The position numbers were made by a program, and so were the translations under genes. A DNA stretch of 64,000 bases from Segatella copri (GTDB lineage Bacteria; Bacteroidota; Bacteroidia; Bacteroidales; Bacteroidaceae): NCBI RefSeq assembly GCF_019249655.2, contig NZ_CP137557.1, forward strand, positions 1,237,001-1,301,000, given 5' to 3'. Below are positions 31,202 to 56,828 of this stretch, one piece after another. A model generated the notes under the pieces. It was not told where the DNA came from. It was given only the letters and a program-made list of their open reading frames with translations, and did no database searches. How positions within the stretch are numbered: position 1 is the first letter of the stretch; every line of letters begins with the position of its first letter.

Positions 31202-32896
31202 CTATGATTGAGGCATGACATACCAAGTTCGTCCTTCCGCTTTTATTAAATATTCTTTGCTCATATTTTTGAGCAAATCTCCGAGCATACGAATTTTTTG
31301 TTCTTCCGTCTTGTTTTGCGGAAGAACATCCTTCAGATATTCGTATATACTATCTCGCTTGGCGCCTTCGTCTCCTGCATTGCTGAGATACTGTAGAACC
31401 ATTTGACGCAATCTCTCCTTATCCAATCCTTTGGTCTTTGTGTAAGAAGGCAGTTGGTGAGTGTTCTTGGCAATGCTAAGAGAAATACTGTAATGCGGGA
31501 CCTCACCTTCTATCAGTCCACGTTTGAGTAAGTCTTGCGCTATATCCTCATGAATAGTTCTGCCTTTTTGTACTGCGTCAAGAGAGATGCAATCCCAGAG
31601 AGATAGAGTGTCGTTTGTCTTCAACAAATCAGTGTATCGTTTATTGATTTCATTGCCATAGATGCGGACAACTACTTTCTTCTTGATCTGGTCAATCTCA
31701 TAGTCAGGCATAGGGAAGTGTCTGCGCCATTGCTCATTGAACATTTTCTTGATACCACGGCTTACGGTATCAATCATGTTGAAATCTACCATCGCCCTAC
31801 ATAAACATTCATTGCGGAAATGCGTCTGAGGCTCTTCGTTCCTCAAAACATTCTCCAAAGTGCCAGGAATGAATGTGCCAGCATTGGAATAATACAGATA
31901 TCCTGGATTCTCTACGAAATTGATGCGTTGCTGAAGAGTGTAGTCTTGATGGCCAATACAATTATGAAGGGCCTCACGGATGGTATAGTCGTCATACTGC
32001 TTCATCGTGTCGGGGAAAAGCGTACCTCCAGGCATTTCACGCAATGTCAGATTCTCTATCTTTGAGAGGATTTCGTCCACCGTTAATATAAATGGAACTG
32101 TGAAGTGTTCGTAGTCAACCACTTCCTGGTTCTTGTCTCGCCGTGTCCAAGTAACCTGTACAACAGCAGGACGCAGTTTGAAAGCGGATTCGTATTTGCC
32201 CAACAAAATGATAGCTGCCCGAGTAATACCTCCGTTTCTCGTTAATCCACACTTGCTCAAGAAAGTTTGAACATTCCAGGCATTCACTTCTTCAGCAGGA
32301 ATACGGCTATGTACTTTCTTGAACATCATTCGAGCTTTGGCAATAGCAACCTCATCCAAATCATCTATTGTCGCATCTGGTACAATTTCTGCAGACCAGT
32401 CCTTTGCTGCGTAGATTGGCTCTTCAAGAATGACAGCCATTCTTTCTTGGGTCAGTTCCACCAACGAATCTTCTATGCGTTGCCATGCCTTCTTGTGGGC
32501 AAGGACAGGGCGACGAGGCAAGTGCTTTGGAATATGTATTATCCATACTCGCCTATTTGTATCATCGGTTATAAACTCCTCAATGCTTAGACCTTCAGAT
32601 GAAAGATAAGTGCATTGTTCTGTGAGTTTGAACGTTGTCGACTGAGTGTTTGCAGGTTGCCCATTAAAAGTAAGCCTTGAAATATCAGTCCCAACAATTT
32701 CAAGCGTCTTATCCTTTACACCAATCACAAGATGTCCACCCTCCATGTTGGCAATAGCTGACACGTAGGAAATAACATCATCCTTCTCGTCCCCACAGAA
32801 CGAGTTCTTCAGATTTTTAAATTCCTTCCATTCACAGCGAGCATTCTCTTGTGGGTATTCGCGGAAGAGGTATTGTTGTAGTTCGAGTTCGAGCAT
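31202..32896 (-). CDS. AlbA_2 / Schlafen-type ATP-binding protein
   Basis: This 564-aa protein has an N-terminal AlbA_2 domain (CEWKEFKNLKNSFCGDEKDDVISYVSAIANMEGGHLVIGVKD, ~20-65), related to the Schlafen core. A middle region carries a GHKL-like ATP-binding part (REALHNCIGHQDY, LYYSNAGTFIPG, ~315-370). A C-terminal region is winged-helix-like (DDSIYEYLKDVLPQN type). Related proteins are annotated as transcriptional regulators or RNA-binding ATPases and turn up in defence contexts. It is the third gene of a minus-strand set after the giant helicase-nuclease and the NERD helicase, 65 bp downstream of the latter. Function is unknown; an effector or regulator role for the neighbouring helicases is inference. 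Confidence 0.8.
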   Translation of the reverse strand: MLELELQQYLFREYPQENARCEWKEFKNLKNSFCGDEKDDVISYVSAIANMEGGHLVIGVKDKTLEIVGTDISRLTFNGQPANTQSTTFKLTEQCTYLSSEGLSIEEFITDDTNRRVWIIHIPKHLPRRPVLAHKKAWQRIEDSLVELTQERMAVILEEPIYAAKDWSAEIVPDATIDDLDEVAIAKARMMFKKVHSRIPAEEVNAWNVQTFLSKCGLTRNGGITRAAIILLGKYESAFKLRPAVVQVTWTRRDKNQEVVDYEHFTVPFILTVDEILSKIENLTLREMPGGTLFPDTMKQYDDYTIREALHNCIGHQDYTLQQRINFVENPGYLYYSNAGTFIPGTLENVLRNEEPQTHFRNECLCRAMVDFNMIDTVSRGIKKMFNEQWRRHFPMPDYEIDQIKKKVVVRIYGNEINKRYTDLLKTNDTLSLWDCISLDAVQKGRTIHEDIAQDLLKRGLIEGEVPHYSISLSIAKNTHQLPSYTKTKGLDKERLRQMVLQYLSNAGDEGAKRDSIYEYLKDVLPQNKTEEQKIRMLGDLLKNMSKEYLIKAEGRTWYVMPQS

Positions 32897-32961
32897 ATCA
32901 CATATTTACTTTTATGATTATTCGTGCATTTTCTTCTCTATTCTAATAGGAAAAATCATAT

Positions 32962-33352
32962 TTATTCTTTTTTTTCATATAATCTTTCAGGAACACTTTT
33001 TAGGGGTTCTTGTAATTTGCCATCATACAGAATATACAAGTTTCTATATGTTCTGGTCATTGCCACGTAAAGTGCCTTCTTTTCGTCTGTATTTCGTGCA
33101 CCATTGTAAAATGGTATAATTACAGTCTCAAACTGTAGGCCTTTAGCACTATGATAAGTCATGAGTTTTGGATGTTCGGTTTTAAAGTTCAGTGTGTCCT
33201 TATTTCTTGAGTCATTATAACCAGCATTGTATTTAAATTCGCATGCAAATTTAGAAGAAGTAAATGAATTCATTATTTCAATAACCATTTCATTATCAGC
33301 TACTAAGATTCCAACATTTCGATATTTGTTCTTTTTTGTTATAGAAATAATC
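32962..33352 (-). pseudogene. 3' part of NERD-UvrD helicase, cut off by ISL3 insertion
   Basis: This is the C-terminal ~130 residues of a superfamily 1 helicase. Motif V (TYHSAKGLQFETVIIP) and motif VI (ALYVAMTRTYRNLYI) are intact, but there is no N-terminal part or promoter of its own. Removing the IS and one copy of the 8-bp duplication joins it in frame with 35217-36918. The join would restore a 694-aa protein across ...NKIISITKKNKY. The piece may be translated from an internal ATG (33288), but it lacks motifs I-IV and would be inactive alone. Confidence 0.9.
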
Positions 33353-35216
33353 GGTTCTTCTCAAATTTTAGTACAAAGCCCCAATTTTTATATGAAGGAG
33401 CAATATTTTTGAGAAAGTTTAATATAAAAAATTAGCGATTGTCTCCAAAAATATGTAAGTTTAAAGTGATCATAAAATATGACTTACAATGGATACAATC
33501 GCTAACAGATGCAAAATTATAAAAAAGATAAGGAACAACCAAATAAAATCCGATATAAATGCTTCTATGGCCGGAGAAAAACTTCTTATGGACATTTTTC
33601 CTGCCATAGATGGCTTTTTTATCACAAGTTGTGACTTCTCTTCCACGGAACTCAAAATGGTTCTCGTGAGTACGGCTACCCATGCCTTCTGCGACCGTTG
33701 TGGCCAGAAAACCACTCATACCCGTGGCTGGCAAAAGAGAACGGTCACGATGTGTCCTTTAGGGTGTAAACGGTTTGTTCTCACCCTTTACATGCGCCGT
33801 TTTTACTGCCAGTCTGATAAACATATATTTGTAGAGCAACAGACGAAGTGGCTAAACAAATATGCAAGATTCAGTGTAAGATGCATAGAGTTGATGAACC
33901 AGCTTCATATACATATGTCATCTGTGTCGACCTCCAAGGTCATGAGAAAGATGGGAATCACCTGCTGTCCAAATACTTGCATAAATCATTTGAAAAAGAT
34001 CCAAAGACTTCCAGACAGGACTGCCAGGAATATAGGCATAGATGACTTTGCCAAGAGAAAGGGACATACCTATGGCAGTGTTATCGTAGACCATGACACA
34101 GGCGAGATTTTGGAACTGATAGACTCTAGAGATTCTTCGATTGTGGCAAATGTCTTGAAACAATACAAGAAAGTCGATACTATCACTCGTGATAGGGGAC
34201 GATGCTTCATTAAGGCTATCAAGCAAGGAGCCCCATCAGCACATGCTATCACAGACAAATTCCATGTCATTGAAGACTTGACGAGCGCAGTCTTTCCAAA
34301 GATTCTGCAGGAGTTTTTGCATAAGAGAATGGAGTTGCTGACTCAAGGTCTAGTTGGTCCCATTAAGCCACAAATAAGTAGAGGTTGGCTTTATACCAGC
34401 ATATATGCAGTCTTGGAATCGATGTGCAAGGATACAAGAAGAATCAAGAAAATGGCTGAATGGAACACTTTCATGGATCTTTATGCAAGGCAAGGACTGA
34501 CTTTGAGTGAAATCCATGACAAAACAGGGTTTGATGGATTTAAGATGGGAAAGCTAAGGAACACCAAATATGAGGACTTGCTCAACCCAACGCAACTAAG
34601 GGCTTACAAAGCCATAGAATCTATTACAAACAGGATTCTCTGTAAAAAGTCATTGGATTACTCTGTGGTTACCAAGGGGTTACATTCTACAGAGAAGAAA
34701 GAAATACTGAAAAGACTTCTTTTTCTACTGAGAGAAAAATGGAAGGAAGACTGGAAGGCATACGATGATGCCTACAAGGCATTTCTTGCAAAGGCAACTA
34801 TCAGGAGCGAAGAGTATGACCTTTGGAATTCAATAGTTCACTTCAACTGGAAAACCAAGACTGATACAGTCAGATTGTTTCTGCAGGACTTGCATATTAC
34901 CGATTTAGCCTATTATATAACAACATTTCAAGGCATTTTGAGCGGAGAGGTCAAAATGAACTTGTACAAATGGATTAACATGGTCATAGGATGTGGTAAT
35001 GAGAAAATGGAAAAGTTTGCCAAAGGACTGATTAAGGACTATTCCGCCATCAATAATTCTATTGCTAGCAAATTGAACAATGGAATCCTTGAAGGTTCGG
35101 TCAACAAGATAAAGACCGCAAAGCGAATTATGGGTGGAAGAGCATCGATTTCTCTTTTGCAGATAAAGGTCTCCTCAAACTTAGATACATAAATGTACCA
35201 AAATTTGAGAAGAACC
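33353..35216 (+). mobile_element. Complete ISL3-family insertion sequence
   Basis: The element is 1864 bp. Its ends are GGTTCTTCTCAAATTTT(A/G)GTACA inverted repeats with a single mismatch over ~22 bp, and perfect 8-bp target duplications AAATAATC flank it (33345-33352 and 35217-35224). The 8-bp duplication length is typical of ISL3. It carries one intact transposase gene. The clean ends and duplication imply a recent insertion, here into the NERD-UvrD helicase gene. Confidence 0.97.
33489..35192 (+). CDS. ISL3-family transposase
   Basis: This 567-aa transposase has the ISL3 layout. An N-terminal zinc-ribbon-like segment (FCDRCGQKTTHTRGW, RFYCQSDKHIFVEQ) and a helix-turn-helix region are followed by a DDE domain beginning IGIDDFAKRKGHTYGSVIVDHDTGEILEL. 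The second Asp lies around ITRDRGRCFIKAIKQGAP, and a C-terminal GSVNKIKTAKRIMGGRAS holds the final acidic/basic motif region. The gene is intact and lies inside perfect terminal repeats, so the element may still be mobile. Confidence 0.95.
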   Translation: MDTIANRCKIIKKIRNNQIKSDINASMAGEKLLMDIFPAIDGFFITSCDFSSTELKMVLVSTATHAFCDRCGQKTTHTRGWQKRTVTMCPLGCKRFVLTLYMRRFYCQSDKHIFVEQQTKWLNKYARFSVRCIELMNQLHIHMSSVSTSKVMRKMGITCCPNTCINHLKKIQRLPDRTARNIGIDDFAKRKGHTYGSVIVDHDTGEILELIDSRDSSIVANVLKQYKKVDTITRDRGRCFIKAIKQGAPSAHAITDKFHVIEDLTSAVFPKILQEFLHKRMELLTQGLVGPIKPQISRGWLYTSIYAVLESMCKDTRRIKKMAEWNTFMDLYARQGLTLSEIHDKTGFDGFKMGKLRNTKYEDLLNPTQLRAYKAIESITNRILCKKSLDYSVVTKGLHSTEKKEILKRLLFLLREKWKEDWKAYDDAYKAFLAKATIRSEEYDLWNSIVHFNWKTKTDTVRLFLQDLHITDLAYYITTFQGILSGEVKMNLYKWINMVIGCGNEKMEKFAKGLIKDYSAINNSIASKLNNGILEGSVNKIKTAKRIMGGRASISLLQIKVSSNLDT

Positions 35217-36918
35217 AAATAATCTTGTTAATTTGTTCTTGTTTTGATTCACAACTCATGATTACAGGTAATGCATTTTCTTTGCTTAAATAAAGGCTTT
35301 CAGAGAAATCTCTAACTTTATCGTTTTTTTCATCCAAACCAAGATAATCCTGTGTAATTTTAGCAACAGATTTAGGAAGACGATAATTATTGTAGAGCCG
35401 TGACACAGCTACTCCTGTCATCTGAGATATTTGATCTATTGTCATTGTCATCTTTCCAAATGCTTTATATATAGATTGAGCTGTATCTCCGAAAAAATAA
35501 AAGCATTTTTTTGCAGCATGTATAAACTGCAATATTTCTTTTTTATCAAAATCCTGTATCTCATCAACAATTATATAATCTGCAGATGGCATACCTTGGT
35601 CAATCCATTGCCAATGATAAAAGAACTTCTTATCAAGTGTATTTGCTTTTCCTTGACTCATATATCTATTTAATGATTTGGTGAAGGCGATTAATATTAC
35701 ATCACCTCCAGCTTCTAGAATTTGCTGAGCTTTGTACATAGCAATAACAGATTTTCCACTTCCTGCACATCCTGCTACAATCATGGATTTTCCAATATTA
35801 TCTCCAATTAGGTCTAATTGATCATCGTCCATAGATTCTGTATCGACATTGAATGCTTTTAATATTTTTTGCTTCAAGCCAAATCGTTTCTTAGGCTTTG
35901 AAGTTTGTTCTATTATAATATTATTAGGTTGATTAACAATATTATCAACTTCATTTTCAACAGTTTTAATGTCCTCAATTAATTGAGTTGCATCTTCTTT
36001 AATCACAGATAATTGCTCTGCAGAAGTGTCTACATGATTATTAGCTTCTTCCAATCGTTCTACTTTAATCTGAAGCAACTCTGCCTGCTGTTGTTGGATA
36101 ATTATATCCTTTTCTTCTGCCATTTTCTGCATTTTAGCCATCATAGTCTGAAGTAAATCTACAGCCTCATGTATTGTTTCTTTGTTCTTGGCATTATCCT
36201 CTTTTTCTTTTGCGAGAAGGACGTTAGGGGAGAAATCATCTCCGTTATGAGCAAACTCTTCGTGGAATAAATCTCCCGGCATCACGTTTGTATCGCTATA
36301 TTTTGTGATTATATAACGCTCATCTAGTCCCTTGCTTCTGATAAAATCAAATATATCACCATCGGTCAAAATAATTGATTTATTCGAACGTGTCCTTGCT
36401 TTAATTGTATCTAACTCTTCGCAAATATGTTCTACATCAGATACATTCACCCACGCATTTGCTCCCCATTTAAAATCTTCATCCAATTTTAAGGATGAAA
36501 TTGAAGAAAACACAACAAGTGCTTGTATATTATTACATGCATCTTCATTCTTGATATATCTCGATAACCCATCTCGTAAAGCTCGACGGTTGATTTTAAG
36601 TTGCTCAAATACAGTTTTACTGGAACCATCTTTCTTCTTGGCTCCTCCATTTATTCTTTCGCTGCCATGAAACCAATCACCGTTCGCCTGAGCTTTAATC
36701 TCACCAGCATAGTTCTTAAATTCAACTAATACAATGGCATCTTCTTTGATTATTAGCCCATCAATATCAACTCCGTTAATATTCAGTTTGCCACTTAAAT
36801 ATAGTACAACTTCGTTCTTTCCCTGATAATGTTTTTGCATGATTGGCAATGTGGAACGAAATTGACTAATTTCTCCAGCATTATCAGCTTTATTAAATTC
36901 ATATGTTATTAAACTCAT
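35128..36918 (-). pseudogene. 5' part of NERD-domain UvrD-like helicase, interrupted by ISL3
   Basis: The genuine coding part runs 36918-35217 (about 567 codons); the frame then reads ~30 codons into the IS and stops at 35128. The N terminus is a NERD nuclease-related domain (DGLIIKEDAIVLVEFKNYAGEI, ~50-75). A coiled-coil-like stretch (~250-330) precedes SF1 helicase motifs: Walker A VAGCAGSGKS, Walker B YIIVDEIQDF, GDTAQSIYKAFG and YNNYRLPKS. Motifs V and VI are on the severed piece at 32962. The start lies 12 bp after the stop of the giant helicase gene, so the two were surely co-transcribed. The current allele is probably null unless the IS excises precisely. Confidence 0.92.
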
Positions 36919-36930
36919 ATTTCTTATAAT

Positions 36931-39900
36931 TTATTTGCCATATCCGGCAATGTTAACAATAAATATATAACCTTGCTTTTGGGCATCTTGTGACCATCCT
37001 AACGCATAATTAGGATTCCTTCCTGTTTCCTCTTCTGCATGCCTGTCTGCAACAAGTGTATCATCATACGTCCAATAGAAAACGTCGCTGACAAAAAAAC
37101 CAGTCAATAGTTCTATATCATCTGCTTCCATATGGTGGGCTATACTGCTTCTTCTGGATAATTGACCAACAATGCTTCCATTATGAATAATATTATATGT
37201 AGTGAATTGCTGGCCATTTCTGTTCATACCTCTGTAACGTCTAATTTCTACTGGATCATTCTTACGCACATTATATGCGATAGCTTTGTTACCATTAAAA
37301 TTATATCCAGCATTAAACCCTATATTATAATTATCGAGTCCAACTTTTCTTTCTCTTATTCCCCATTGGTCTTCAAGGCTGGTAAAGCGACGCATGTTTT
37401 CAACCGCCTTCTCCCTATTTCCTTTGTATACGAATAGGTATTTTCTTGCACGAGTATATGCAACATATAGTAGTCTTTTCTCTTCTTCTATTTGTTCAAT
37501 GTCATTAGAGGAGAGTGGGGTAGACTCATCAATATCTTCAGTTGGGTTAAAAGGAAGAGACGTTACCGATGGTGTTATAATGACAGCATCAAACTCCAAT
37601 CCCTTCACTTTATGCATAGTGGTAAGCACTACATTAAGTTGTTGGTCTAATAATATTCGTCTGTTTTGGAACCGCTTGTCATCATATAACTTATATAGCT
37701 GTGGATTATCTTCCTTTAAAGTCTCTCTGATACTATCGGCCATATCCCCATAAGTATGTAATTCCTCATCTGTCGATGCAAAATCAAGATAATCAAGTAT
37801 TAATACAAATGCAAAATCCATATAGAATGAGTCCCAATTAGGACGTTGACTCATCCAATATGCAATTTTTTCCTTCAATTCATATTCTGTTTGGTTATTC
37901 TCCAGTTTGATCTTCTTATTACATTCTTTATCCAGTAGTGTAAGTACAGCATAAATTTCTCGCATTCTATATAACTCACATACAGAAGCACCTTGTATCC
38001 TGATTCTAATACCTGGTAGATTAAGGGCTTTTATAAGTGAGTAACCGTGATAGACTTCATTATTCGTTCTGAAGAACACGGCCAAATCAGTGATACCTTG
38101 CTCTTTTAACCATTGAACATATCCACCAAAATCGTTTGACCATTCTCTGCTGTCTTGGTAAATATACACATACTCTGATTGTGGTTCGTTTTCTATATTC
38201 TTCTTGCATGGAACTGGTACATGAGAAGTTGCTGGTAGATAGCGACTGGCTTCTTTGAGAATCTTTGGATATGAACGATAATTAGTGCTCATTGTCATTT
38301 TCTTAGGACTTAAAGTCTTATAAAGCTGTTCATAATAATAATTTGGATCCATAGACTCTTCTTTCTCAAATCCATATATACTTTGATCTTTATCTCCAAT
38401 TGTAAAGAACGTGAGGTCATTATAGATTTCTTTCAACCCAAACATTGCATTAAGTCTTGTTTGAGTAATATCTTGGAACTCGTCAATAAATACATATTGA
38501 AGATCTGGCATTGCTGCTCGAACGTCATTTGGCTTGTTTTTTATCGTTCTAAGTAGTATTCTTTCCCACTCATTCATTTCATGTCCGGAGAGCGCAGTAT
38601 CTCCGCACACTCTTTTTGCAAGACTGTGGAAAGTGTATACATGTAATTGACTTGCAGAACGACTCAATCCAAGTGACGCGAATAGTTTAGCCAAACGACT
38701 TTTTAGCTCAACAACTACAGCCCTGTTATAAGCCAACACTAAGATGCTCTTAGGGTTTACATGTTGATGGTATATTAGTTTTGCACATTTTAATGTCAGG
38801 ACATGTGTTTTTCCTGATCCAGGGCCTGCTTCTACGTTAACATTTTCATTTGAGTTCTCATTGTAGATGGCCCATTGTTCCGGATTGTCTTGTAATTGTT
38901 TTTCCGCTTTTTTTATTGCCGTGGCACGAAGAGCATCCCAGATAGGATCAGATTCTTCATAGTAGTTACTTAATAATGTTTTAAAGTCTTCGGAGTTTTT
39001 TAATGAAAAATATGATCCGATCAATTCCTGGAATTCCTGTTTTGAGTGAATCTTCGTTGTAAGAACGTCCATAACGCATAAACGAAGATTTCTGATTTCT
39101 ATAGCTTCATCAAATGCGACTTTGTCTTGATAATCTTTAGAATCTGGCTCAACGTTCTCTAAAATCACTTCTTCAGAATTGTCAGTTGTATATATCTCAA
39201 TGCCAGTAGGAAGCAATGCATCCGTGGAGATGTATGCCATTCCATTTAGATATCGTAAAAGGCTCTCGAAATATACGAATCCTTTATTTTCAAATCCCAA
39301 CTCAACAATAGCATCAGACCAGCGGATTATAGTGCTTTGGCATTTATTGATATATTCCAAGGTTTTCAAACAGTCTGCCTGAAAATCATTTAAAAATTCT
39401 TTCCATGTGTCTTTCTCTACTATTACAGATTGAAGAACACATTTTTTCTTTGTATCTATGTATGATTGTACTTTAACATCAGGAATAATCTCCAATAATG
39501 ATATGACTTGTCTCAGGCGTTTCTTGTATAAATCGTCATGGTATGAATGGGCAATAGATAAGCCTTTATTATTTTGTTTATCATTCTCATTATACCAAGT
39601 CATGTATTTTTCTGTAGACTGATTGCCGTCTTCATCGGTCTTAGTGACCTTCTTTACAATTTCTTCTAGGGTATCTGAATCCTTAATGAATTGACGAATA
39701 TCGGAAAGAGTATAATTCTTTTCGAGTTTTAATCCATTATTCAGCAACAGTGATCTTGTGGCATTCAAAATTATATGAAATGCAACTTCATGTGAATTCC
39801 AGTCCATCATGTAGGAAACTTCACTCAGTCTAGTGAACGCAATGTGGCATCGAGTTTCTTGTTCTATTCGAATAATTTTATGTTTCTCGCACCAAATCAA

Positions 39901-42900
39901 ACTGTCTAGCAGTTTGGCTGAAGGCATTGACAGTTTTGCAGCAAGTTTCTGAATGGAGACCTGAATATTTGAATTTTGTTGTTCTGTTTGAATGAATCTC
40001 AACTCAGCTAAAATAGCTGTAGCATAAGTGGCGCTACGGGATGTAGAAAGCCTTTTGATTCTTTCTTCTAACGTCTCTTCATTTGAATCTGCTGAATTAT
40101 TATCAAGAATTGTAATATTAATATGTGCAGGACTCAAATATCCCATCTTGATTCTTCCCATTCGCTCAAGCCAATACTGGCCAATTTTGAAGTCTGTAAA
40201 GTCATAATCGAACTGGCCATTTGCCCATAACGTATTTGGAACTACTACAGGATATTCTTTAGTTTTATCAATTGACTGTATTTTTGTAATGTACGAATTA
40301 ATAGCTACTCTAATCTCCTCAAGATTCTTCCAACTTAAGGTGCTTTGGAGAAGCTGCTCTTTAGCTTTCTTAATATCATCCTTTGAGAACAGACACAAGG
40401 TCGGTATAGGATTTGATTCACTAAATCCTGCATCTATATACATTTTTTTATTTCGTCCAGCTCTACCAACTTCCTGAAGATAATCTTCCATTACACTTGG
40501 CGGCATCAAATGGACAATATAGTGAATGTTAGGTATATCCATCCCCATACCAAATGCCTTTGTTGCACAAAGTATATATAATGGATCATTGTTATCTTTA
40601 AATCTTTTATATGTTTCTTCTCTATCATCGCCATCCATGCCAGCATGGAAATAGCCTATTGCTTGTGTTGACAATTCTTTACTTAAGATTTCTGCCTTGT
40701 ACAATTCATCCGCTAGAAGCAAAGACATTTCTTCACATTGATTTCTAGTTTTACAGAAAACAAGCATTCGGCTATCTTGAGCTTTGATGTTATTTTTTAT
40801 GATATAGTCAACGATTTCTTTCAAACGATGAGGTATATCATGAAACACCAATTTAAAGTCCATTTTGATGTGGCTCCTGATAGGATTGTAAATCTTCTTA
40901 TCATTTTCTTGTCCCAATCGCTTTACAGGAATTACATCATTTATTTGATCGTATATCATGTCGGTTACTGTCGCTGAAAACATTGATATACACATGTCAT
41001 CGCCATAAGTATCCTTGAACTTCTTACATATTTTTATAACATTTAAATATTCTGGACGGAACTCCATTCCCCATTGTGAAATACAATGCGCTTCATCAAA
41101 TATCATATACTCAAGTCCATGATCATTTGCCATTCTTGAGGATAAAGCATTTAAGAATGCTCTTGAACGGAAACGCTCAGGAGTTACATAAAGAATCGCT
41201 ATTTCACCACCATTAATTTTTCTATATATGTTCTTTACTTCTTGGTATGATCTGTCTCCATTTAAGTAATCTACATTGGATATAAAGCCTTTTTCTCCTA
41301 GTTCTTTTACCTGATCTTGCATCAATGCCTTCAATGGAGTTACTACAATAGACAGTTTATTTGTATATGCTGAATTATAAAGCGCAGGTCCTTGGAATAA
41401 AACGGATTTTCCACCACCTGTAGGTAGTGAGACAAGATAGTTTCCTTGTCTTTTAAGGATATGAGGGATAATCTCCGCTTGAATAGGGCTCCATTTCTTT
41501 TCAGGATCATGTTCTGGATTTACTAATATCGAAAAAATAAGGTCTTTAGCCTTTTCAATATCTGAATCATTTTCATAAATGGATGAGCTATCCGTAAAGA
41601 AAGTCTTGCAAATATTTAGTGAATCATTAAAATCTTCCTCTTTATTCCATAATTGTTTTACCCTATAAGAAGATACACCCCATACTGCTGAAAGAAAGTG
41701 ATATTCCTCTAGGAAAGAGTCAAGTACATACATTGTTGATTCAATGCTGTTAGCTTTTATAAAATGATAATAATATTCATATACAGGCCATATAGACAGC
41801 AAAATAGACTGGTAAGTATCTTTTGCCGAACCTATTGCAACAGATGTTCCTTTTTCTTTTATACCATCATACAAGAATGATTTGTTAAACTCATTTGTAA
41901 GACCATTCCACATCATCATATGTTTCTCAACGGCCAGGTTATCCCACACATAACAATATGGTGTGTCTCTTCGCCAATCAACGATATCAAAGAAATGATT
42001 TTTGCTTGTTACAAGCATACCATTTTCATGATGGTCTATCAACTCAAGTTTTCTGACCAAAGAACCATTGTCAGGAATATAGAAACCTAATGTTCTTGCA
42101 TAAGACACGACATCTTCTATTTCCAGAGAATCTTCTAATAATAGAATTATAGGGCGATGATCTTTATAGAAATGAATGTCTTTAAGTAAAGCCATTTGAT
42201 AGGCCCAGTAGGTGGCTCTATACCTTGATGTTGCACTGACGCGCTTTTGTAAAGCATCAAATCCTTTGCCATGTCCACTATATACTAAATGTATTGAGTT
42301 GTTATTTCCGCTGTCTGTTATCCATGGAATTATTTCTATTGTCACCCCCTCAGAGCCATTGTTCAGTGACTCTAAAATAGAGAAGAAATCATAATTGTAG
42401 CTAACGACATACTTGCCTTCTCTAGTTCTCTCAATCCATACGTTAGCAGCTTCCGAAGGTACATCATTAAAAATATTTAGTTTTCGTTCTTCCTTATTTA
42501 CAGCAATGTAACTGGATGCCCCTAATCGCATAGGGATACTGCTATCATTTAGCCAAAAAACAGAAGGAGAATAATGAGTTGGCAATGAATATTGGTTTAC
42601 TCGATTTTCAATTTCACAACCAACAAACCAAATATGTTCGTAATTTTTTAGGTTACTATTTTCCCTTAGAAACTCCATGTCTGCACAATCTACATTTCCG
42701 GAGCTTTCAATAACGTACTCTTCAAGTAGATTATCAGATAAATAATTGAGCCTAAGATATTGAGCAAGATTTGCTACAACTGGAGTTTTTGACATGGTAA
42801 CAAATCTATTTAAAAGTGCATTAAGGAAAGTATCGTCAAGAGGTTTCTCATGAAGCATTTTTTTACTAATAGACATGTAATCAATGTCTTCCTGCTTCTG

Positions 42901-45900
42901 GACAAATTTCATATCCACATATTCAGCAATTCTTGACCATAGACGTTTAGGAGCAATAATTAACCTCTTTGAATCAATATCGTTAATTGCCTTTATACGA
43001 GATACAACTTGTTCATCTGTATCAGTAAGAACCTGATAAAAGTTGTCTTCTTTAGAATCCTTGCTAAAGAAATCAGAAAATTCTGGTTGTCTCAAAACAT
43101 CTAAGATCTCATTAATTTTGGCAGGAAGTAAGTCTTTAAGTTCGCCACACAAAGACACATTCTTTGAGAGTCTATAAAGCTGATTCCAGAATAATCGATC
43201 TACCAGTTCTGTATCTTCTTGAGCTGTATGTCCTGTGTGAAGTGCATATGAGTATCTGCAAGGATTTAATAGAATCTCTATTTCTAAAGTGTCCCAAACA
43301 AATGCATTTGACTCAAAGCCTTTCTTGCTTAATATACAGCCCAAATCCCACGCTTTGATTCTGTGACCAACAATAATCTCAGTTCCTTTTAATGCACGTA
43401 GAAGTGTATTTAGCTGCTCTTCTCCTTGGTACATCTTTGTGCTTTCATCTTTTCTAAAAGCAAATTCCTTAATAGTATCCCCATCTGATTCTAAATCGAA
43501 AGCCACATATGGAATTTGTGATTTTAATTTCTTCCATTGTTCACCAATAAACAGATCAAAGAGTTTTGTTGAAGCAAAATACCGAACAACTATGTCTTTT
43601 GCATAAGTCTCAGGACATAACTGCAGAATCTTATACTGGTCATCTTCAGATAACTCAATTATAGAATCTCTAAATTTTTCACTATTTATAGATGTAAGGG
43701 TTTCAGCAATAGCTTCTTTATCTTCATCATCAATAAAAGATTTCTGACAACTTAGGAGAAATTGACTTACAAATGAAGGCTCTTGCTCATTTATCCAAAG
43801 AGGTATAGAATCAAAATCTTCTATTTCATTTAGATTATCTGGATTAGCAGTTAATGCAAATAGTTCAACATACAATTCATCCTTCACTGAGGCAGTGATG
43901 GAAATAATATCTGCAGGTTGGTTGTTATTATTAATGCACAAATTGAAAAACGAACGTACCTCTGGCTCTTTGTCTGCTATCAGAGTATTCAGATGTTCTC
44001 CTATTTGTGGGTATATATGTCGTACATCTATTCCGTTTAGTATATAATTGTTAATGATGTCGAAATCATTTTGTATAAATCTTCCAGCCAACAGTTTTAG
44101 GACTTCTAAATGATGTTGTGGATTATCTAATAACTTAGTAACCAGTTTTTTTGACGTCTCATAGTCAAGCTCATCTATTAAATTTGCTTGTTCTATGAAC
44201 GCTTTGTCTTTATCTGAAAAATAATAAATCAAGAAAGAAAATGCTTCAGATTCAGATTTTTCCTTGAGAAATTTGTATGCTTCGTTCCAGGGCTTACCTG
44301 CGTCATTGTAGATAGAATTATTTTGCGTAATAAGAGAAATTACATAAAGCAGATTCATCGAAAGGCTTGTCGGATTTGCCAATAAAGCATTTAATATGGA
44401 AGTATGTGCCGAAATCCAAAGTCTAACTTCTGTTAAGTGCTCTTCTGATGATTTTTCAAGGGATTCAATGGTCTCTGTAAGACATGAAGAAAAATCGAAA
44501 TCATCAGGTAGTGCCTGTAAGATACTTATATCTTTTTGGGTGAAAATACTATTTTCTACGGTAGCTGTTATTGATTTTATAGCATTACAATAAGTACCAT
44601 TATCTGATGTGTATGACTTTAACTCTGGCAACAATGCAATTAGTTGTTTAAGCAAATTGCTATCCTGCAGAAATTCTTCAATTATTTGAGAACATTCCAC
44701 ATTGCTATAATTCGATAGATACTCTGCGAAAGTTTCTATTACTATTTCTTTTCCTTCAGGCTTTCTTAGAATCTTGCCTACGACATGGCAGATTACGTCA
44801 TGATCATGATACGATCCTTTTGAATCTTGCCCTTCTATTTTAGCGAAAATTCCTCTATAAGGAAGAGCTAATAAAAGTCCATTTTTGTCATATGTCAACC
44901 AATCACCATTTATAGCTTCACGTCTTCCCCTAAATGTTGATGGATTCATTATAATCCATACATCTTCCTCAGGATAAACCTCTGATTTCCAATTTCTCTC
45001 ATTGAGATTGAAAGTGTATAATTTGCCGGAAGTATCTTCGTTATTTATGCCAAGAGCGTTAGTGAGAACTTTTCCGAAATTATTAACACGACTATCATAG
45101 AATTGAACTATGGCAATATTCTTGTCAAGTTTAAGCTGTTCTTTTTCCTTTGGTTGTTTTGAGCCATGGTCAGCTTTTGGCATAAGTTGACTTGTGATGT
45201 CAATTTCAACTAAATGCTTACTGATATCTATACTTATAATGTTACCAGAAATCGTTTTTCCAATTGGATAAGTATATCCGTTCGGAATAGAAGCTTCAAC
45301 AATGGCACCATTCTGAATTTCGATATATGCACGGCTTTTAGATATCTTTTTAACAATACCTTGAATTTCATTTCCTGTTGCGAACTGATCAATTTGTGAT
45401 AGTAAAGGGTCATCCAGTAATTGTTTTCTTCCAACTCTCAGTTTTTTCTTTTCTTCTTCATAACCAATAATGGTGACCTCTATTTCCATCCCCTCATACA
45501 AAAAGTTATTTATGTCGTCGATATACCCCCATGTGACATCCTTAGTGTATAAGAAAGCAGAAAGTTTTTCAACGGTTACATATGCGCCATGTGGCATAAC
45601 TCGTTGAACCTTTCCTGTAAATCGCTCGTTTTGATGTGTATTGCCAAATTCTCTTAACTGTGCAATCGTTTCTTCGGAAAGAAGATTTTTGGGGTTCTGT
45701 TCTTTCTTTGTCCTATGCTTAGGTCTAGTACTTTGGTTTAATGAACTTAAATCTATTTTACCAAGAACCCTAGGCTCCTTATTAATTTGATTTTCTTTCT
45801 TTAACGTGAATATCTTCGGTGCAGATTCGTTTGAATCAATATTACTTTTAGGTATTATCTGTTTATATTTATATTGATGGGTGAATATTGGATCAATTTG

Positions 45901-46038
45901 TCTAAGTTGCGAATCATCTAATACATACTCTGGGTCTTCAGGTAGTATTACTCCTTTTTCCTTAGCATTTTGAACTATGTCATAGACCATTAGGCCTTTG
46001 ATATCTGCATATTCTTGTATTGTAATTCTCTGTGCCAT
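36931..46038 (-). CDS. Giant S1-exonuclease-RecQ-UvrD fusion protein (3035 aa)
   Basis: A single open frame encodes several nucleic-acid modules in order. An N-terminal helical segment is followed by an S1 domain (~139-210, RFTGKVQRVMPHGAYVTV) and a second S1-like domain (~220-285). A possible cold-shock-like stretch (IAIVQFYDSRVNNFGKVL) and a helical region follow. A DEDDh exonuclease comes next (FDLESD near 849, VGHRIKAWDLG near 894, HTAQEDTELVDR near 941), then an unassigned ~550-residue region. The RecQ-type helicase has PTGGGKS near 1541, FDEAHCISQWG near 1648, and GMDIPNIHYIVHL with EVGRAGRN. A UvrD/Rep-type helicase ends it (GPGSGKT near 2405, FIDEFQD near 2519, RLLYVAYTRARKYL near 2859). 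It is strongly AT-rich and starts 109 bp after a UpxY gene. I do not know a named family with this layout; a defence role is inference. Confidence 0.9.
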   Translation of the reverse strand: MAQRITIQEYADIKGLMVYDIVQNAKEKGVILPEDPEYVLDDSQLRQIDPIFTHQYKYKQIIPKSNIDSNESAPKIFTLKKENQINKEPRVLGKIDLSSLNQSTRPKHRTKKEQNPKNLLSEETIAQLREFGNTHQNERFTGKVQRVMPHGAYVTVEKLSAFLYTKDVTWGYIDDINNFLYEGMEIEVTIIGYEEEKKKLRVGRKQLLDDPLLSQIDQFATGNEIQGIVKKISKSRAYIEIQNGAIVEASIPNGYTYPIGKTISGNIISIDISKHLVEIDITSQLMPKADHGSKQPKEKEQLKLDKNIAIVQFYDSRVNNFGKVLTNALGINNEDTSGKLYTFNLNERNWKSEVYPEEDVWIIMNPSTFRGRREAINGDWLTYDKNGLLLALPYRGIFAKIEGQDSKGSYHDHDVICHVVGKILRKPEGKEIVIETFAEYLSNYSNVECSQIIEEFLQDSNLLKQLIALLPELKSYTSDNGTYCNAIKSITATVENSIFTQKDISILQALPDDFDFSSCLTETIESLEKSSEEHLTEVRLWISAHTSILNALLANPTSLSMNLLYVISLITQNNSIYNDAGKPWNEAYKFLKEKSESEAFSFLIYYFSDKDKAFIEQANLIDELDYETSKKLVTKLLDNPQHHLEVLKLLAGRFIQNDFDIINNYILNGIDVRHIYPQIGEHLNTLIADKEPEVRSFFNLCINNNNQPADIISITASVKDELYVELFALTANPDNLNEIEDFDSIPLWINEQEPSFVSQFLLSCQKSFIDDEDKEAIAETLTSINSEKFRDSIIELSEDDQYKILQLCPETYAKDIVVRYFASTKLFDLFIGEQWKKLKSQIPYVAFDLESDGDTIKEFAFRKDESTKMYQGEEQLNTLLRALKGTEIIVGHRIKAWDLGCILSKKGFESNAFVWDTLEIEILLNPCRYSYALHTGHTAQEDTELVDRLFWNQLYRLSKNVSLCGELKDLLPAKINEILDVLRQPEFSDFFSKDSKEDNFYQVLTDTDEQVVSRIKAINDIDSKRLIIAPKRLWSRIAEYVDMKFVQKQEDIDYMSISKKMLHEKPLDDTFLNALLNRFVTMSKTPVVANLAQYLRLNYLSDNLLEEYVIESSGNVDCADMEFLRENSNLKNYEHIWFVGCEIENRVNQYSLPTHYSPSVFWLNDSSIPMRLGASSYIAVNKEERKLNIFNDVPSEAANVWIERTREGKYVVSYNYDFFSILESLNNGSEGVTIEIIPWITDSGNNNSIHLVYSGHGKGFDALQKRVSATSRYRATYWAYQMALLKDIHFYKDHRPIILLLEDSLEIEDVVSYARTLGFYIPDNGSLVRKLELIDHHENGMLVTSKNHFFDIVDWRRDTPYCYVWDNLAVEKHMMMWNGLTNEFNKSFLYDGIKEKGTSVAIGSAKDTYQSILLSIWPVYEYYYHFIKANSIESTMYVLDSFLEEYHFLSAVWGVSSYRVKQLWNKEEDFNDSLNICKTFFTDSSSIYENDSDIEKAKDLIFSILVNPEHDPEKKWSPIQAEIIPHILKRQGNYLVSLPTGGGKSVLFQGPALYNSAYTNKLSIVVTPLKALMQDQVKELGEKGFISNVDYLNGDRSYQEVKNIYRKINGGEIAILYVTPERFRSRAFLNALSSRMANDHGLEYMIFDEAHCISQWGMEFRPEYLNVIKICKKFKDTYGDDMCISMFSATVTDMIYDQINDVIPVKRLGQENDKKIYNPIRSHIKMDFKLVFHDIPHRLKEIVDYIIKNNIKAQDSRMLVFCKTRNQCEEMSLLLADELYKAEILSKELSTQAIGYFHAGMDGDDREETYKRFKDNNDPLYILCATKAFGMGMDIPNIHYIVHLMPPSVMEDYLQEVGRAGRNKKMYIDAGFSESNPIPTLCLFSKDDIKKAKEQLLQSTLSWKNLEEIRVAINSYITKIQSIDKTKEYPVVVPNTLWANGQFDYDFTDFKIGQYWLERMGRIKMGYLSPAHINITILDNNSADSNEETLEERIKRLSTSRSATYATAILAELRFIQTEQQNSNIQVSIQKLAAKLSMPSAKLLDSLIWCEKHKIIRIEQETRCHIAFTRLSEVSYMMDWNSHEVAFHIILNATRSLLLNNGLKLEKNYTLSDIRQFIKDSDTLEEIVKKVTKTDEDGNQSTEKYMTWYNENDKQNNKGLSIAHSYHDDLYKKRLRQVISLLEIIPDVKVQSYIDTKKKCVLQSVIVEKDTWKEFLNDFQADCLKTLEYINKCQSTIIRWSDAIVELGFENKGFVYFESLLRYLNGMAYISTDALLPTGIEIYTTDNSEEVILENVEPDSKDYQDKVAFDEAIEIRNLRLCVMDVLTTKIHSKQEFQELIGSYFSLKNSEDFKTLLSNYYEESDPIWDALRATAIKKAEKQLQDNPEQWAIYNENSNENVNVEAGPGSGKTHVLTLKCAKLIYHQHVNPKSILVLAYNRAVVVELKSRLAKLFASLGLSRSASQLHVYTFHSLAKRVCGDTALSGHEMNEWERILLRTIKNKPNDVRAAMPDLQYVFIDEFQDITQTRLNAMFGLKEIYNDLTFFTIGDKDQSIYGFEKEESMDPNYYYEQLYKTLSPKKMTMSTNYRSYPKILKEASRYLPATSHVPVPCKKNIENEPQSEYVYIYQDSREWSNDFGGYVQWLKEQGITDLAVFFRTNNEVYHGYSLIKALNLPGIRIRIQGASVCELYRMREIYAVLTLLDKECNKKIKLENNQTEYELKEKIAYWMSQRPNWDSFYMDFAFVLILDYLDFASTDEELHTYGDMADSIRETLKEDNPQLYKLYDDKRFQNRRILLDQQLNVVLTTMHKVKGLEFDAVIITPSVTSLPFNPTEDIDESTPLSSNDIEQIEEEKRLLYVAYTRARKYLFVYKGNREKAVENMRRFTSLEDQWGIRERKVGLDNYNIGFNAGYNFNGNKAIAYNVRKNDPVEIRRYRGMNRNGQQFTTYNIIHNGSIVGQLSRRSSIAHHMEADDIELLTGFFVSDVFYWTYDDTLVADRHAEEETGRNPNYALGWSQDAQKQGYIFIVNIAGYGK

Positions 46039-46147
46039 ATCGGACTTGTTATTTTACTTGTTTATAAACTGTTAATGTATTGTCAATTCTATTTTAAGGT
46101 CGCAGGCTAAAAAAAGCTATAACCTTCGAAATCTTTTGTAAAAGAAA

Positions 46148-46933
46148 TCACAATTGTTGAGACTCGGAAGTTTTTGTCTTATCTGTCATACACATACTGA
46201 TGATCTTATGTTCATTATACATTTCCATTGCCCCATTCGGTATATACGCCGTAGCCACCAAGCATCCATCAAAAAGTTCTACCACCACTCTCTGCTGACC
46301 TGCAATCCTTGTCACTCTACCATGTATATCCTTAAACTCACCCTCTGTAATCACGACTTCATCCCCTAACTTATATTTGATATTCTCAGAAGTAACAGGG
46401 ATAATGTGAGGATTATGTATGGAGGTTAAACGGATGAAATTATCCATAGCAGTATCGGCAATGATTAGAGGAGGATTCTTGGTTGGCGCATTTTCACAAT
46501 GTGAAGTATGGTCGTAATAGTAACTCAACAAAGCTCTATTTTCAAAAGCCTTGATGTTCTTATCTTGCAAAAGAGAGTCAACTTGCTCTGCTGTTGCATG
46601 AACAATCATAAAAGATGAAATAAGAGGCTCCGTGATGATTCGCTTTTTTCCTTGCTTTCTTACCTCTTTATATCGCAAAGGAACATAACATTCCAATCCT
46701 TTAGCCTCAACGAATGTTTTTGCTTTGATAATACGCCCATAAGAAACTCTTAATACAAACCATTGCTTGTTTCGTGAAGGCACATTCTCTACCGACACCC
46801 CACCTCTGTTCTTTGAAGTGGAGGGCGTACAAGAGGTAAGTCTTGCACTTGGACACGATGAACCTGTGTCAGTAGGTTGCCCATTATACAATGAAGCGTT
46901 AGCCGTTAAAGGCTGTTTGATTTTATCTTCCAA
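46148..46933 (-). CDS. UpxY-family NusG paralogue (antiterminator)
   Basis: This 261-aa protein is a specialised NusG. An NGN domain starts at Trp58 (WFVLRVSYGRIIKAKTFVEAKG), and a KOW domain near 187-220 reads LGDEVVITEGEFKDIHGRVTR. It has a ~57-residue low-complexity Ser/Thr/Pro-rich extension before the NGN domain. Bacteroides UpxY proteins antiterminate the capsule operons they precede. Here the downstream gene is not a polysaccharide gene but the 9.1-kb helicase-nuclease gene, 109 bp away on the same strand. I infer that it lets RNA polymerase run through this very long AT-rich operon. Confidence 0.88.
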   Translation of the reverse strand: MEDKIKQPLTANASLYNGQPTDTGSSCPSARLTSCTPSTSKNRGGVSVENVPSRNKQWFVLRVSYGRIIKAKTFVEAKGLECYVPLRYKEVRKQGKKRIITEPLISSFMIVHATAEQVDSLLQDKNIKAFENRALLSYYYDHTSHCENAPTKNPPLIIADTAMDNFIRLTSIHNPHIIPVTSENIKYKLGDEVVITEGEFKDIHGRVTRIAGQQRVVVELFDGCLVATAYIPNGAMEMYNEHKIISMCMTDKTKTSESQQL

Positions 46934-47001: not shown

Positions 47002-47009
47002 CAAAGGTA
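47002..47009 (-). promoter_or_regulatory. -7 box for UpxY-helicase operon
   Basis: TACCTTTG on the minus strand matches TAnnTTTG and lies ~69 bp upstream of the UpxY start. The IS4-type element begins ~100 bp further upstream, so the native promoter may be intact. No clear -33 element is seen. Confidence 0.5.
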
Positions 47010-52248: not shown

Positions 52249-53835
52249 ATGAAATATCCTATAGGAATACAAGACTTCGAAAAAATCATAGAGGGTGGAT
52301 ATGTTTATCTTGATAAAACTGGCCTCGTTTATGATTTGGTGCAAAATGGCAATATATACTTTCTGTGTCGTCCTAGACGATTCGGAAAGTCGTTGCTCGT
52401 ATCTACCTTGAAATACTATTTCGAGGGAAAAAAGGAGTTGTTCAAGGGCCTTGCCATCGATAAACTGGAGAAAGATTGGAAGCAATATCCTGTGTTCCAT
52501 CTCTCTTTTGGTGGTCAAAACTTTGTAGAGCCTTATGCGTTAGACAAAGTGTTGGAGGAGTTTGTTGCCATGGCAGAACGTATCTATGGACGTGAGGAGT
52601 TGGCCGAGACTTTAGGCAGCCGCTTTAAGGCAGTGTTGGGGAAAGCTCATCAGAAGACAGGAATGAGGGCTGTCGTGCTAATTGATGAATACGATAAGCC
52701 GTTGTTGGACGTAATGGATATGGATATTCCTGTAAGAGAAACTCCGAATAAAATGACTTTGGAAGAGTATAATCGCAATCTTCTCAAAGGTTTTTATTCC
52801 GTTTTTAAGGAAGCCGATGCCGATTTGCAGTTTGTTTTGTTGACTGGCGTTACCAAGTTCTCTCAGGTGAGTGTGTTCAGCGGTTTTAACCAACCTGATG
52901 ACATTAGCTTGGATGAGCACTATGAGGCTCTTTGTGGAATCACCAAGGAAGAATTATATACGACCTTTAGGGAGCAAATCAAGGCAATGGCAGAGAGATA
53001 TAGGGTTTCAGAGGATGAGATGAAGTATAAGTTGAAACGTAAGTTCGACGGTTATCATTTTAGCTCTAACATGCTCGATATCTATAATCCGTTTAGTATC
53101 TTGAATTCCTTGAGCAAGAGGAGACTAAGCGACTTTTGGTTTCGTACTGGTACACCAACTTATTTGGTTCGCTTGCTTTCCCATTTTAAGGAGAATTTGA
53201 ATGAGTTGACTGGCAAGTATTATCCAACAAGTAGTTTCGTGGATTATCGGGCAGATGTAGAAGCGCCATTGCCTATGATTTATCAGAGTGGCTATCTTAC
53301 GATAAAGGATTGGAACATGAATATGGATTCCTATCTATTGGATTTTCCGAATGATGAGGTAAAAAATGGTTTCCTTACTTTGGTGGCTACTAGCTATTTA
53401 CAGCCAAAAGAGTCGACTGATGCTTTTGTTTTACAAGTGGTGAGTGCTATGGACGTGGGCGATTGTAAACAGTTGGAGAAACTGCTCACTTCTTTCTTTG
53501 CCAGCATCCCTTATGGTCAACGCCGTAAGGATGACGAGCGAGAGAAAGAGCGCTATTTCCAATATACCTTCTATCTCGTATTGAGAATGATCAGCTGTTT
53601 CACGGTCTTCATCGAAAAGCAGCAAAGCGAAGGTAGGGTAGATTGCGTGGTTGAGACCCAGAACTATATCTACATCTTCGAGTTCAAGCGTGATGGTTTG
53701 GCAGAGGAAGCCCTGAAGCAGATAGAGGAAATGGGCTATGCTAGGGAATATGCAGCAGATGGCAGAAAGATTTATCAGATAGGCTGCAACTTCTCATCGA
53801 AGACGGGAACCATTGATGGGTGGAAAATGAAGTAG
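52249..53835 (+). CDS. AAA-ATPase-like / PD-(D/E)XK nuclease family protein
   Basis: This 528-aa protein matches the AAA-ATPase_like plus PDDEXK_9 architecture that is expanded in Bacteroidota. It opens YPIGIQDFEKIIEGGYVYLDKT. Walker A is RPRRFGKSLLVSTL (~41-54) and Walker B is VVLIDEYDKPL (~142-152), followed by LLTGVTKFSQVSVFSGFN. A C-terminal nuclease-like fold carries GRVDCVVETQNYIYIFEFK (~466-484), which has the D...E-x-K triad. Function is unknown; the family occurs in many near-identical copies per genome. A 13-base match to its 3' coding end (TCGAAGACGGGAA) at 52142-52154 hints that another copy once lay upstream. Confidence 0.88.
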   Translation: MKYPIGIQDFEKIIEGGYVYLDKTGLVYDLVQNGNIYFLCRPRRFGKSLLVSTLKYYFEGKKELFKGLAIDKLEKDWKQYPVFHLSFGGQNFVEPYALDKVLEEFVAMAERIYGREELAETLGSRFKAVLGKAHQKTGMRAVVLIDEYDKPLLDVMDMDIPVRETPNKMTLEEYNRNLLKGFYSVFKEADADLQFVLLTGVTKFSQVSVFSGFNQPDDISLDEHYEALCGITKEELYTTFREQIKAMAERYRVSEDEMKYKLKRKFDGYHFSSNMLDIYNPFSILNSLSKRRLSDFWFRTGTPTYLVRLLSHFKENLNELTGKYYPTSSFVDYRADVEAPLPMIYQSGYLTIKDWNMNMDSYLLDFPNDEVKNGFLTLVATSYLQPKESTDAFVLQVVSAMDVGDCKQLEKLLTSFFASIPYGQRRKDDEREKERYFQYTFYLVLRMISCFTVFIEKQQSEGRVDCVVETQNYIYIFEFKRDGLAEEALKQIEEMGYAREYAADGRKIYQIGCNFSSKTGTIDGWKMK

Positions 53836-56096: not shown

Positions 56097-56828
56097 ATGA
56101 AAGTCGATGAATGGGCATCAGAAGATGTACACACCTCAGGAGGTGGTGAACTTCCTCCTTGCGCTGGACTTACCTCCAACGCCCTCCCCGAAGCTCAATG
56201 CACTGTTTCCGCTGAGAGTTCACAAACAGGGGTGTCCACCAGAAATGCCCATATAGCAAGTAAGCCTAAAGCACAAAAAGAGGAAGATATCCCTCATTGG
56301 TATGCCTTACGTACCACATATGGTAGAGAGAAAAAGGCATACGACTACATGACAGTCAAAGGCATCACTGCTTTCTATCCTACTACAGATACTGTAAAAC
56401 TTATAAAAGGTAAGCGCAAAGTGGTTACCGAGTCACGTTTACCAAATATCTTCTTCGCCTATGGTACAGAAGAGCAACTCAAATCTTTCGTTTACGACAA
56501 CGTAAACCTCCCATTTCTCCGCTTTTATTATCGTCACGTCCACGTTGGGCGCAGAATAGAGAAAATTCCATTGATTGTTCCCAACTATCAGATGGAAAGT
56601 CTCAAAATCATCTGTGCTGCCGATGCGGACAATACCATCGTGTCATTTGTCGAAGTGTCAAAGTTCGAGAAAGGACAATTGGTTAAGGTTACTGAAGGAG
56701 CGTTCAAAGGAGTGATAGGAAGAGTTGCACGCTGGCAAGGACAGCAGAGAGTTGGGGTTGTAGTAGATGACTTGGTGACAGTTGTGACAGCGTATATTCC
56801 AAGCGCGTTTATAGAGTTAATAAAATAA
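56097..56828 (+). CDS. UpxY-family NusG paralogue (antiterminator)
   Basis: This 243-aa specialised NusG has an NGN domain from Trp68 (HWYALRTTYGREKKAYDYMTVKGI) and a KOW domain near 200-235 (FEKGQLVKVTEGAFKGVIGRVARWQGQQRVG). Like the paralogue at 46148 it carries a long Ser/Thr/Ala-rich N-terminal extension (~67 residues). No capsule genes follow. The next genes are an 871-aa repeat protein and a very long WG-repeat gene on the same strand, so I infer antitermination of that cassette. The terminator 47 bp before its start suggests it may be autoregulated. Confidence 0.87.
   Translation: MKVDEWASEDVHTSGGGELPPCAGLTSNALPEAQCTVSAESSQTGVSTRNAHIASKPKAQKEEDIPHWYALRTTYGREKKAYDYMTVKGITAFYPTTDTVKLIKGKRKVVTESRLPNIFFAYGTEEQLKSFVYDNVNLPFLRFYYRHVHVGRRIEKIPLIVPNYQMESLKIICAADADNTIVSFVEVSKFEKGQLVKVTEGAFKGVIGRVARWQGQQRVGVVVDDLVTVVTAYIPSAFIELIK

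Follow-up and report, generated by a model that had tools for sequence, protein, structure and literature searches.

A giant helicase-exonuclease of Segatella copri that probably belongs to an undescribed anti-phage system

Do four neighbouring genes of Segatella copri, one of them encoding a protein of 3035 amino acids (aa), form a defence system, and which of their products belong together? The genes lie on contig NZ_CP137557.1 (assembly GCF_019249655.2), in the stretch of 64,000 nucleotides from position 1,237,001 to 1,301,000, which is here called the window. A sequence-only reading had proposed that the genes of an UpxY-type protein, the giant protein, a NERD-linked helicase and an AlbA_2 protein make up an anti-phage or anti-plasmid operon. 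The giant is a member of an undescribed, sparse family and, as judged from the genomic context of its relatives, probably belongs to an undescribed anti-phage system. The locus as a whole is interpreted, with somewhat better than even confidence, as a horizontally acquired, AT-rich anti-mobile-element cassette centred on this helicase-exonuclease machine.

By profile searches and structure modelling, the predicted layout of the giant was shown to comprise tandem OB-folds (two S1 domains and a cold-shock domain, CSD) and an alpha-solenoid, followed by the conserved DEDDh, pseudo-DinG, RecQ and UvrD domains (Table 1). Both S1 domains expected from the first reading were recovered, one with Pfam and the other with structure and profile comparison. 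Also the DEDDh exonuclease was confirmed by its invariant motifs and by profile comparison (hhalign to the RNase_T set, E 5.5e-13, probability 97.9), which was used instead of a search of PDB sequences that gave no meaningful match for the domain. The presence of two different helicases, RecQ and UvrD, agreed with Pfam and NCBIfam, but a third, degenerate helicase-like domain had been overlooked. This middle domain has the DinG/XPD fold, with Staphylococcus aureus DinG among its fold matches, and none of the PDB sequences matched it. No Walker A P-loop is recognisable in it, as judged by eye: IIAPKRLW stands at the expected place, where the consensus is AP..LW. The numerous low-scoring AAA and helicase rows of the Pfam searches were taken as generic.

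Table 1. Features of the locus and domains of the giant protein, with window positions; Pfam and NCBIfam cut-offs in brackets.
Feature	Position	Strand	Residues of the giant	Evidence
UpxY-type NusG paralogue	46148..46933	-		NCBIfam NF033644 110.8 bits (100), PF02357
Giant protein, 3035 aa	36931..46038	-		Open reading frame (ORF)
S1 domain 1	45427..45630	-	137-204	Pfam
S1 domain 2	45190..45375	-	~222-283	AlphaFold2 (AF2); tandem match to bS1 D3-D4
Cold-shock domain (CSD)	44794..45126	-	~305-415	Structure and profile
Alpha-solenoid	43516..44796	-	~415-841	AF2 model, pLDDT mostly 90+
DEDDh 3'-5' exonuclease domain	43159..43512	-	~843-960	D848, E850, D898, H937, D942
Degenerate DinG/XPD-like superfamily 2 domain	41599..43026	-	~1005-1480	No recognisable P-loop
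RecQ-type helicase core	40444..41496	-	1515-1865	TIGR00614 203.6 bits (219.8); DEAD, Helicase_C over cut-off
UvrD-type superfamily 1 (SF1) helicase	37399..38886	-	~2385-2880	PF00580, PF13361 over cut-off
NERD-helicase 5' part, NERD + SF1 RecA-like	35217..36918	-		PF08378 34.7 bits (22.1), AAA_30/AAA_19; ORF 35128-36918
ISL3-family insertion	33353..35216	.		PF01610; transposase 33489-35192 (+)
NERD-helicase 3' part, UvrD_C-like end	32962..33352	-		ORF 32962-33288; PF13538, PF13361 over cut-off
SLFN_AlbA_2 + HATPase_c_4 protein, 564 aa	31202..32896	-		PF04326 43.8 bits (25.3), PF13749 32.4 bits (26)

The conservation of the catalytic residues was read from 50 giants encoded by one ORF, each of 2100 aa or more. 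The five DEDDh residues D-E-D-H-D were invariant and RecQ motifs I, II and VI were kept in 50/50, and the UvrD motifs in 48-49 of the 50, the remainder being gaps. Residues 840-3035 form the core general to the giants, while the N terminus is variable.

A protein search with the giant, in which scoring was limited to the 7991 candidates with most words in common and 120 homologues were listed, gave 713 homologues at E<=1e-20. Many of the matches listed were 3035-3053 aa long and 85-96% identical, and near-identical members of full length were found on many contigs. Of 175 pattern matches in the species genomes of GTDB, 119 encoded a relative, and 79 distinct loci were retained; these came from a scan with an alignment, whereas none was confirmed from a scan with the single protein. 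Altogether 85 loci (denoted by L numbers) were fetched, and a clustered giant ORF was present in 84 of the 86 loci including the window, the exceptions being L056 and L057. Relatives occur in 4/393 genomes of the order and 3/399 of the family to which the genome of L008 belongs, both counts including this centre genome itself. Pattern scans of IMG/VR found neither a giant nor UpxY, and the AlbA_2 pattern scan yielded one contig (L143) that unites a C-terminal piece of the giant, the helicase and AlbA_2. On this contig (L143:7639-13949) the AlbA_2 protein is 72% identical, and an AAA_15/AAA_21 ATPase and a helix-turn-helix (HTH) protein are also encoded; the preceding genes look Mu-like by eye, and the single one put to Pfam gave no hit. 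No paper recognisable as a description of the giant was found in the open-licence literature searched.

In 18 genomes, the neighbourhood of the giant was compared with that of recQ (TIGR01389); on either side, the closest ORFs of 150 aa or longer, three at most, were taken. With PADLOC at E<=1e-20, the 102 giant-flank proteins matched 143 families and the 106 recQ-flank control proteins 28, although these figures count families, not proteins, and partly reflect shared helicase domains. The 25 best of the 143 families were led by NERD+UvrD, DruE, Type I restriction-modification (R-M), prokaryotic Argonaute (pAgo), MADS and DpdJ models. The 25 best of the 28 control families were the PDC-S02/S04/S13 candidates, AbiE and one PD_DExK model, each of them matching one member. 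The flanks of the relatives include Type I R-M, McrBC, pAgo, Druantia-like and MADS genes; McrC-like clusters were present at nine loci and McrB-like clusters at eight, one representative of each having been checked. The proposed defence role is thus supported by defence-rich flanks, a far poorer recQ control and rarity, but not in the form of a single fixed four-gene system.

An SF1 helicase is encoded directly downstream of the giant in 14/15 testable close relatives, with gaps of 6-64 bp; 13 of these were counted through clustering and L012 through tblastn and Pfam, and L013, which ends too early, was excluded. In L009 the helicase itself is split over two ORFs. When searched with tblastn, the helicase matched 13 of the 85 loci, all inside two close groups and none outside them. 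In the core tree of the 50 giants, the window groups with L007, L008, L014 and L009 (support 1.0), and an 11-member sister group (support 0.998) likewise has the helicase. The helicase begins with one of two alternative domains: NERD is present in the window, L007, L008, L009 and L012 (assigned by alignment, with a Pfam check in the window, L008 and L012), and an alternative helical domain takes its place in nine members and in L143. A HEPN identity of the alternative domain was rejected as mere resemblance.

The ORF check of the window reproduced the four ORFs and coordinates of the sequence-only reading, all on the minus strand with spacings of 109, 12 and 65 bp. However, the NERD-helicase, taken for a whole gene, has an ISL3 element inserted within it, so that ORF 35128-36918 is not a complete gene and the 65-bp gap separates a 3' remnant, not an intact helicase gene, from the AlbA_2 gene. 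The element has identical, inverted outer ends of 16 bp and is flanked by the 8-bp direct repeat AAATAATC at 33345-33352 and 35217-35224. The 5' part of the gene has homologues in L007 and L008 (74-76% identical), in which the 3' part aligns directly after it. Because the insertion interrupts this gene, the window copy is probably not fully functional and its cassette probably impaired.

Other partners recur less regularly. Among the 50 giants, checked with phmmer, S1 is fused to the giant only in the window, L007 and L008. A separate gene for an S1-repeat protein lies upstream of the giant, at -8 to +14 bp, in L015, L016, L022, L026 and L027 (in L027 by clustering only, S1 not being confirmed by profile), and further upstream in L012. 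As the fused and separate-gene forms swap, S1 appears tied to the giant. On a Rhodobacter plasmid (L003:7111-14512), a separate cold-shock-annotated protein is encoded upstream of a RecQ-UvrD protein; its Pfam CSD score of 25.6 bits is slightly under the cut-off of 27. AlbA_2 follows the helicase in the window, L008, L011, L016 and also L143. It lies in the vicinity of the giant in L075 (by clustering) and in L030 (hidden Markov model, HMM, 4.7e-16), and in the cluster mates L018 and L038 it is joined to WYL. A pAgo (Piwi) gene precedes the giant by 18 bp in L030 (L030:6569-8614) and in its cluster mate L025 (L025:6395-8449). In L030 an AlbA_2-like gene immediately precedes the pAgo gene.

Several results weigh against the interpretation of the locus as a defence cassette, or at least against its unity. 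AlbA_2 follows the helicase in 4/10 testable close relatives and was not seen in L010, L017, L019, L022, L027 and L036. UpxY was found at 0/85 other loci (tblastn; HMM/phmmer) and was rejected as a component of the system, being retained merely as a likely local transcription aid. S1 is missing from L009 and L014, which are near relatives of the window, and in L014 the giant is broken and a helicase partner is lacking. Taken together, the two helicase-bearing groups have a support of only 0.251, which rises to 0.966 when the helicase-less L018, L023 and L038 are added. The flank set contains some of the partners themselves, namely the helicases of L008, L016 and L022 and the AlbA_2 of L008 and L016. 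Furthermore, some of the broader RecQ-UvrD relatives occur on plasmids, next to genes for partition or replication, as in L004, which fits mobile-element upkeep. Of the partners expected to be conserved, the helicase was kept, AlbA_2 in part of the relatives only and UpxY in none; with NERD being an alternative and the cassette damaged, a fixed unit of UpxY, giant, NERD-helicase and AlbA_2 was not upheld.

In 18 loci of Flavobacteriia/Cytophagia (L001, L042, L044, L045, L047-L055, L058, L059, L061, L062 and L083) a pair of overlapping genes encodes the giant. The break falls at window residues ~1696-1718, past RecQ motif III and ahead of motif IV, at the border of RecA1 and RecA2. Motifs I, II and SAT were on the first product in 18/18 split loci and motif VI on the second in 18/18. 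Seventeen of the loci form one clade (0.958), with L058 apart. The count omits L046, the second half of which was not recovered as an ORF, L002 with more than two pieces, and L082, in which two ORFs with a 23-nt overlap are broken at the same place. The genes overlap by 1, 4, 8, 14 or 17 nt, an overlap of 85 nt in L054 being an artefact of the chosen start. These overlaps and the annotation of two genes in L001 speak against sequencing error. Programmed frameshifting at the junction was not favoured either, as the overlap lengths vary and TAATG is among them.

If the locus is the defensive cassette proposed here, the OB-folds and the solenoid would recognise single-stranded DNA or RNA of the invader, such as that at the forks of replicating phage, in R-loops or on exposed transcripts. 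The target would be unwound or stripped by RecQ and UvrD, which are both 3'-5' motor families, and the 3' strand would be removed by the DEDDh site. The NERD-helicase could act as an endonuclease and as an additional motor, the Schlafen-like AlbA_2 protein could cut RNA or regulate the complex, and UpxY could aid the transcription of the long AT-rich operon. Lineages would exchange partners (NERD- or other-domain helicase, S1 protein, AlbA_2, pAgo), altering recognition or outcome, while the destructive core would stay unchanged. DNA seems the likelier target because RecQ and UvrD are present, and RNA or R-loops could also serve because of the S1 and cold-shock domains. A broader idea, put forward tentatively and rather doubtful as a whole, is that of a modular immune platform, in which a conserved DEDDh-pseudoDinG-RecQ-UvrD destroyer is aimed by exchangeable modules (S1/CSD, AlbA_2, NERD-helicase, pAgo) and the split RecQ motor of one lineage is a possible licensing step, formed only on assembly of both subunits. 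The naturally split RecQ core would offer a direct test bed for lobe assembly of a helicase that switches immunity on. Here an exonuclease shares one chain with three motors, of which two are intact and one is dead, and the same core is found elsewhere in the company of pAgo, AlbA_2, OB-fold and NERD partners. Should the family prove defensive, the profile libraries used would have missed a system of wide distribution, through which one could study how a fixed DNA-destroying core is redirected when its partners are swapped.

The giant might instead serve mobile elements as cargo, in the processing of plasmids or integrative conjugative elements or in competitor exclusion, with defence arising only as conflict between elements. 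This unlikely explanation would suit the AT-rich stretch in the window and the plasmid relatives, which number 339 records, none of them matching across more than 80% of the query; L001 and L004 sit on plasmids typed mobilizable. However, no relaxase, integrase or replication gene was found among the ORFs of at least 150 aa at 31-48.4 kb, only two insertion sequence (IS) transposases, and the relatives that match best are found on genome contigs, many of which also carry R-M, McrBC or pAgo genes. A host enzyme of DNA repair or recombination with no immune role is improbable. RecQ, UvrD and DEDDh enzyme types are all found in housekeeping repair, and the DinG of S. aureus, itself of the domain order DEDDh-DinG, resembles the giant in having DEDDh followed by a DinG-like fold. 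The DinG-like part of the giant nevertheless differs in having no recognisable P-loop and in the addition of RecQ and UvrD. Moreover, the giant is present in only about 1% of the sampled genomes, its flanks are defence-rich, unlike the recQ flanks of the same genomes, and 27/30 giant-carrying genomes have a separate RecQ over the curated cut-off. The rarity also argues against a conserved housekeeping core gene.

Quite unlikely, too, is a TOTE-type conflict system (TPR, OB, TBP, Effector) with the DEDDh-RecQ-UvrD core as its effector. The giant resembles such systems in its general plan, with OB-folds and a helical solenoid ahead of the presumed effector, and NERD and cold-shock proteins occur in TALON (PMC12458937). 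In L008 an AEP-TOTE primase-helicase gene (L008:15271-18111; PF22548, 1e-98) lies downstream of the giant, the helicase, AlbA_2 and a small HTH gene, but AEP-TOTE was seen at this locus only, among the few downstream genes scanned with Pfam. Pfam gave no TBP hit in seven ORFs of the region, and no YprA-type helicase is among the operon genes. The TOTE OB model PF22707 had no hit in the window and reached 13-14 bits in L021 and L084, far under its cut-off of 27; the S1CSD-TOTE-2 hits in these two loci were weak. TPR repeats were represented by a single TPR_19 hit (0.15) in L064, the solenoid of the window being known from the model.

As for named systems, the cassette is best described as a candidate variant among helicase-nuclease defence systems. 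The earlier statement that no named system matches held in so far as the PADLOC models on the operon cover parts only: of the 48 families on the giant the 25 best were examined, and no displayed model of PADLOC (copy from 2023), Pfam or NCBIfam spans more than part of it. In Gabija, a UvrD-family helicase works with a nuclease in defence, and GajB profiles match the UvrD part of the giant (1.4e-41) and the NERD-helicase (1.5e-9). The match is unspecific, as PcrA/UvrD models match as well. The locus is not Gabija, since GajA, the OLD-family ATPase with TOPRIM that accompanies GajB, was not found among the PADLOC families displayed for five operon ORFs and ten other window ORFs; also the Pfam scan of the operon region gave no OLD or TOPRIM hit, and the giant differs in that a single chain unites exonuclease, RecQ, pseudo-DinG and OB-folds. 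The RecQ-like cores of DpdF, PsyrT and SngC in PADLOC align with that of the giant (best DpdF, 1e-62), but the match is limited to this core, and the DpdF equivalog NF041063 at 143 bits, far under its cut-off of 550, speaks against Dpd. The AlbA_2 protein resembles Schlafen proteins in exceeding the PF04326 cut-off and in a weak PDB match to SLFN14 (0.0045), and differs from them in ending in HATPase_c_4.

The GC content is 0.34-0.39 at 32-48 kb, compared with 0.45-0.51 leftward and 0.47-0.51 at 48-52 kb. The AT-rich island of the first reading therefore exists, but the right end of the window (52-64 kb) is also AT-rich (0.31-0.41), so that low GC is not special to the operon stretch. On the left of the operon are genes for a GH2 protein and a rhamnogalacturonan lyase, and on its right genes for a transposase, an Na+/H+ exchanger and an MFS transporter. 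The UpxY gene, with an uncertain TTG start, presumably heads the transcript; about 70 bp ahead of it, on the minus strand at 47002-47009, is TACCTTTG, which we take to match the Bacteroidetes -7 box. Rfam had no match anywhere in the window, and the 115-nt leader of the giant folded no better than shuffles (z -0.81). A further AT-rich stretch contains a second gene of the NusG/UpxY type (56097-56828), which precedes those of BspA-like LRR and WG-repeat proteins. Positions 52249-53835 encode an AAA-ATPase_like + PDDEXK_9 protein, a relative of which is encoded in L007, with 48 bp between it and the giant downstream.

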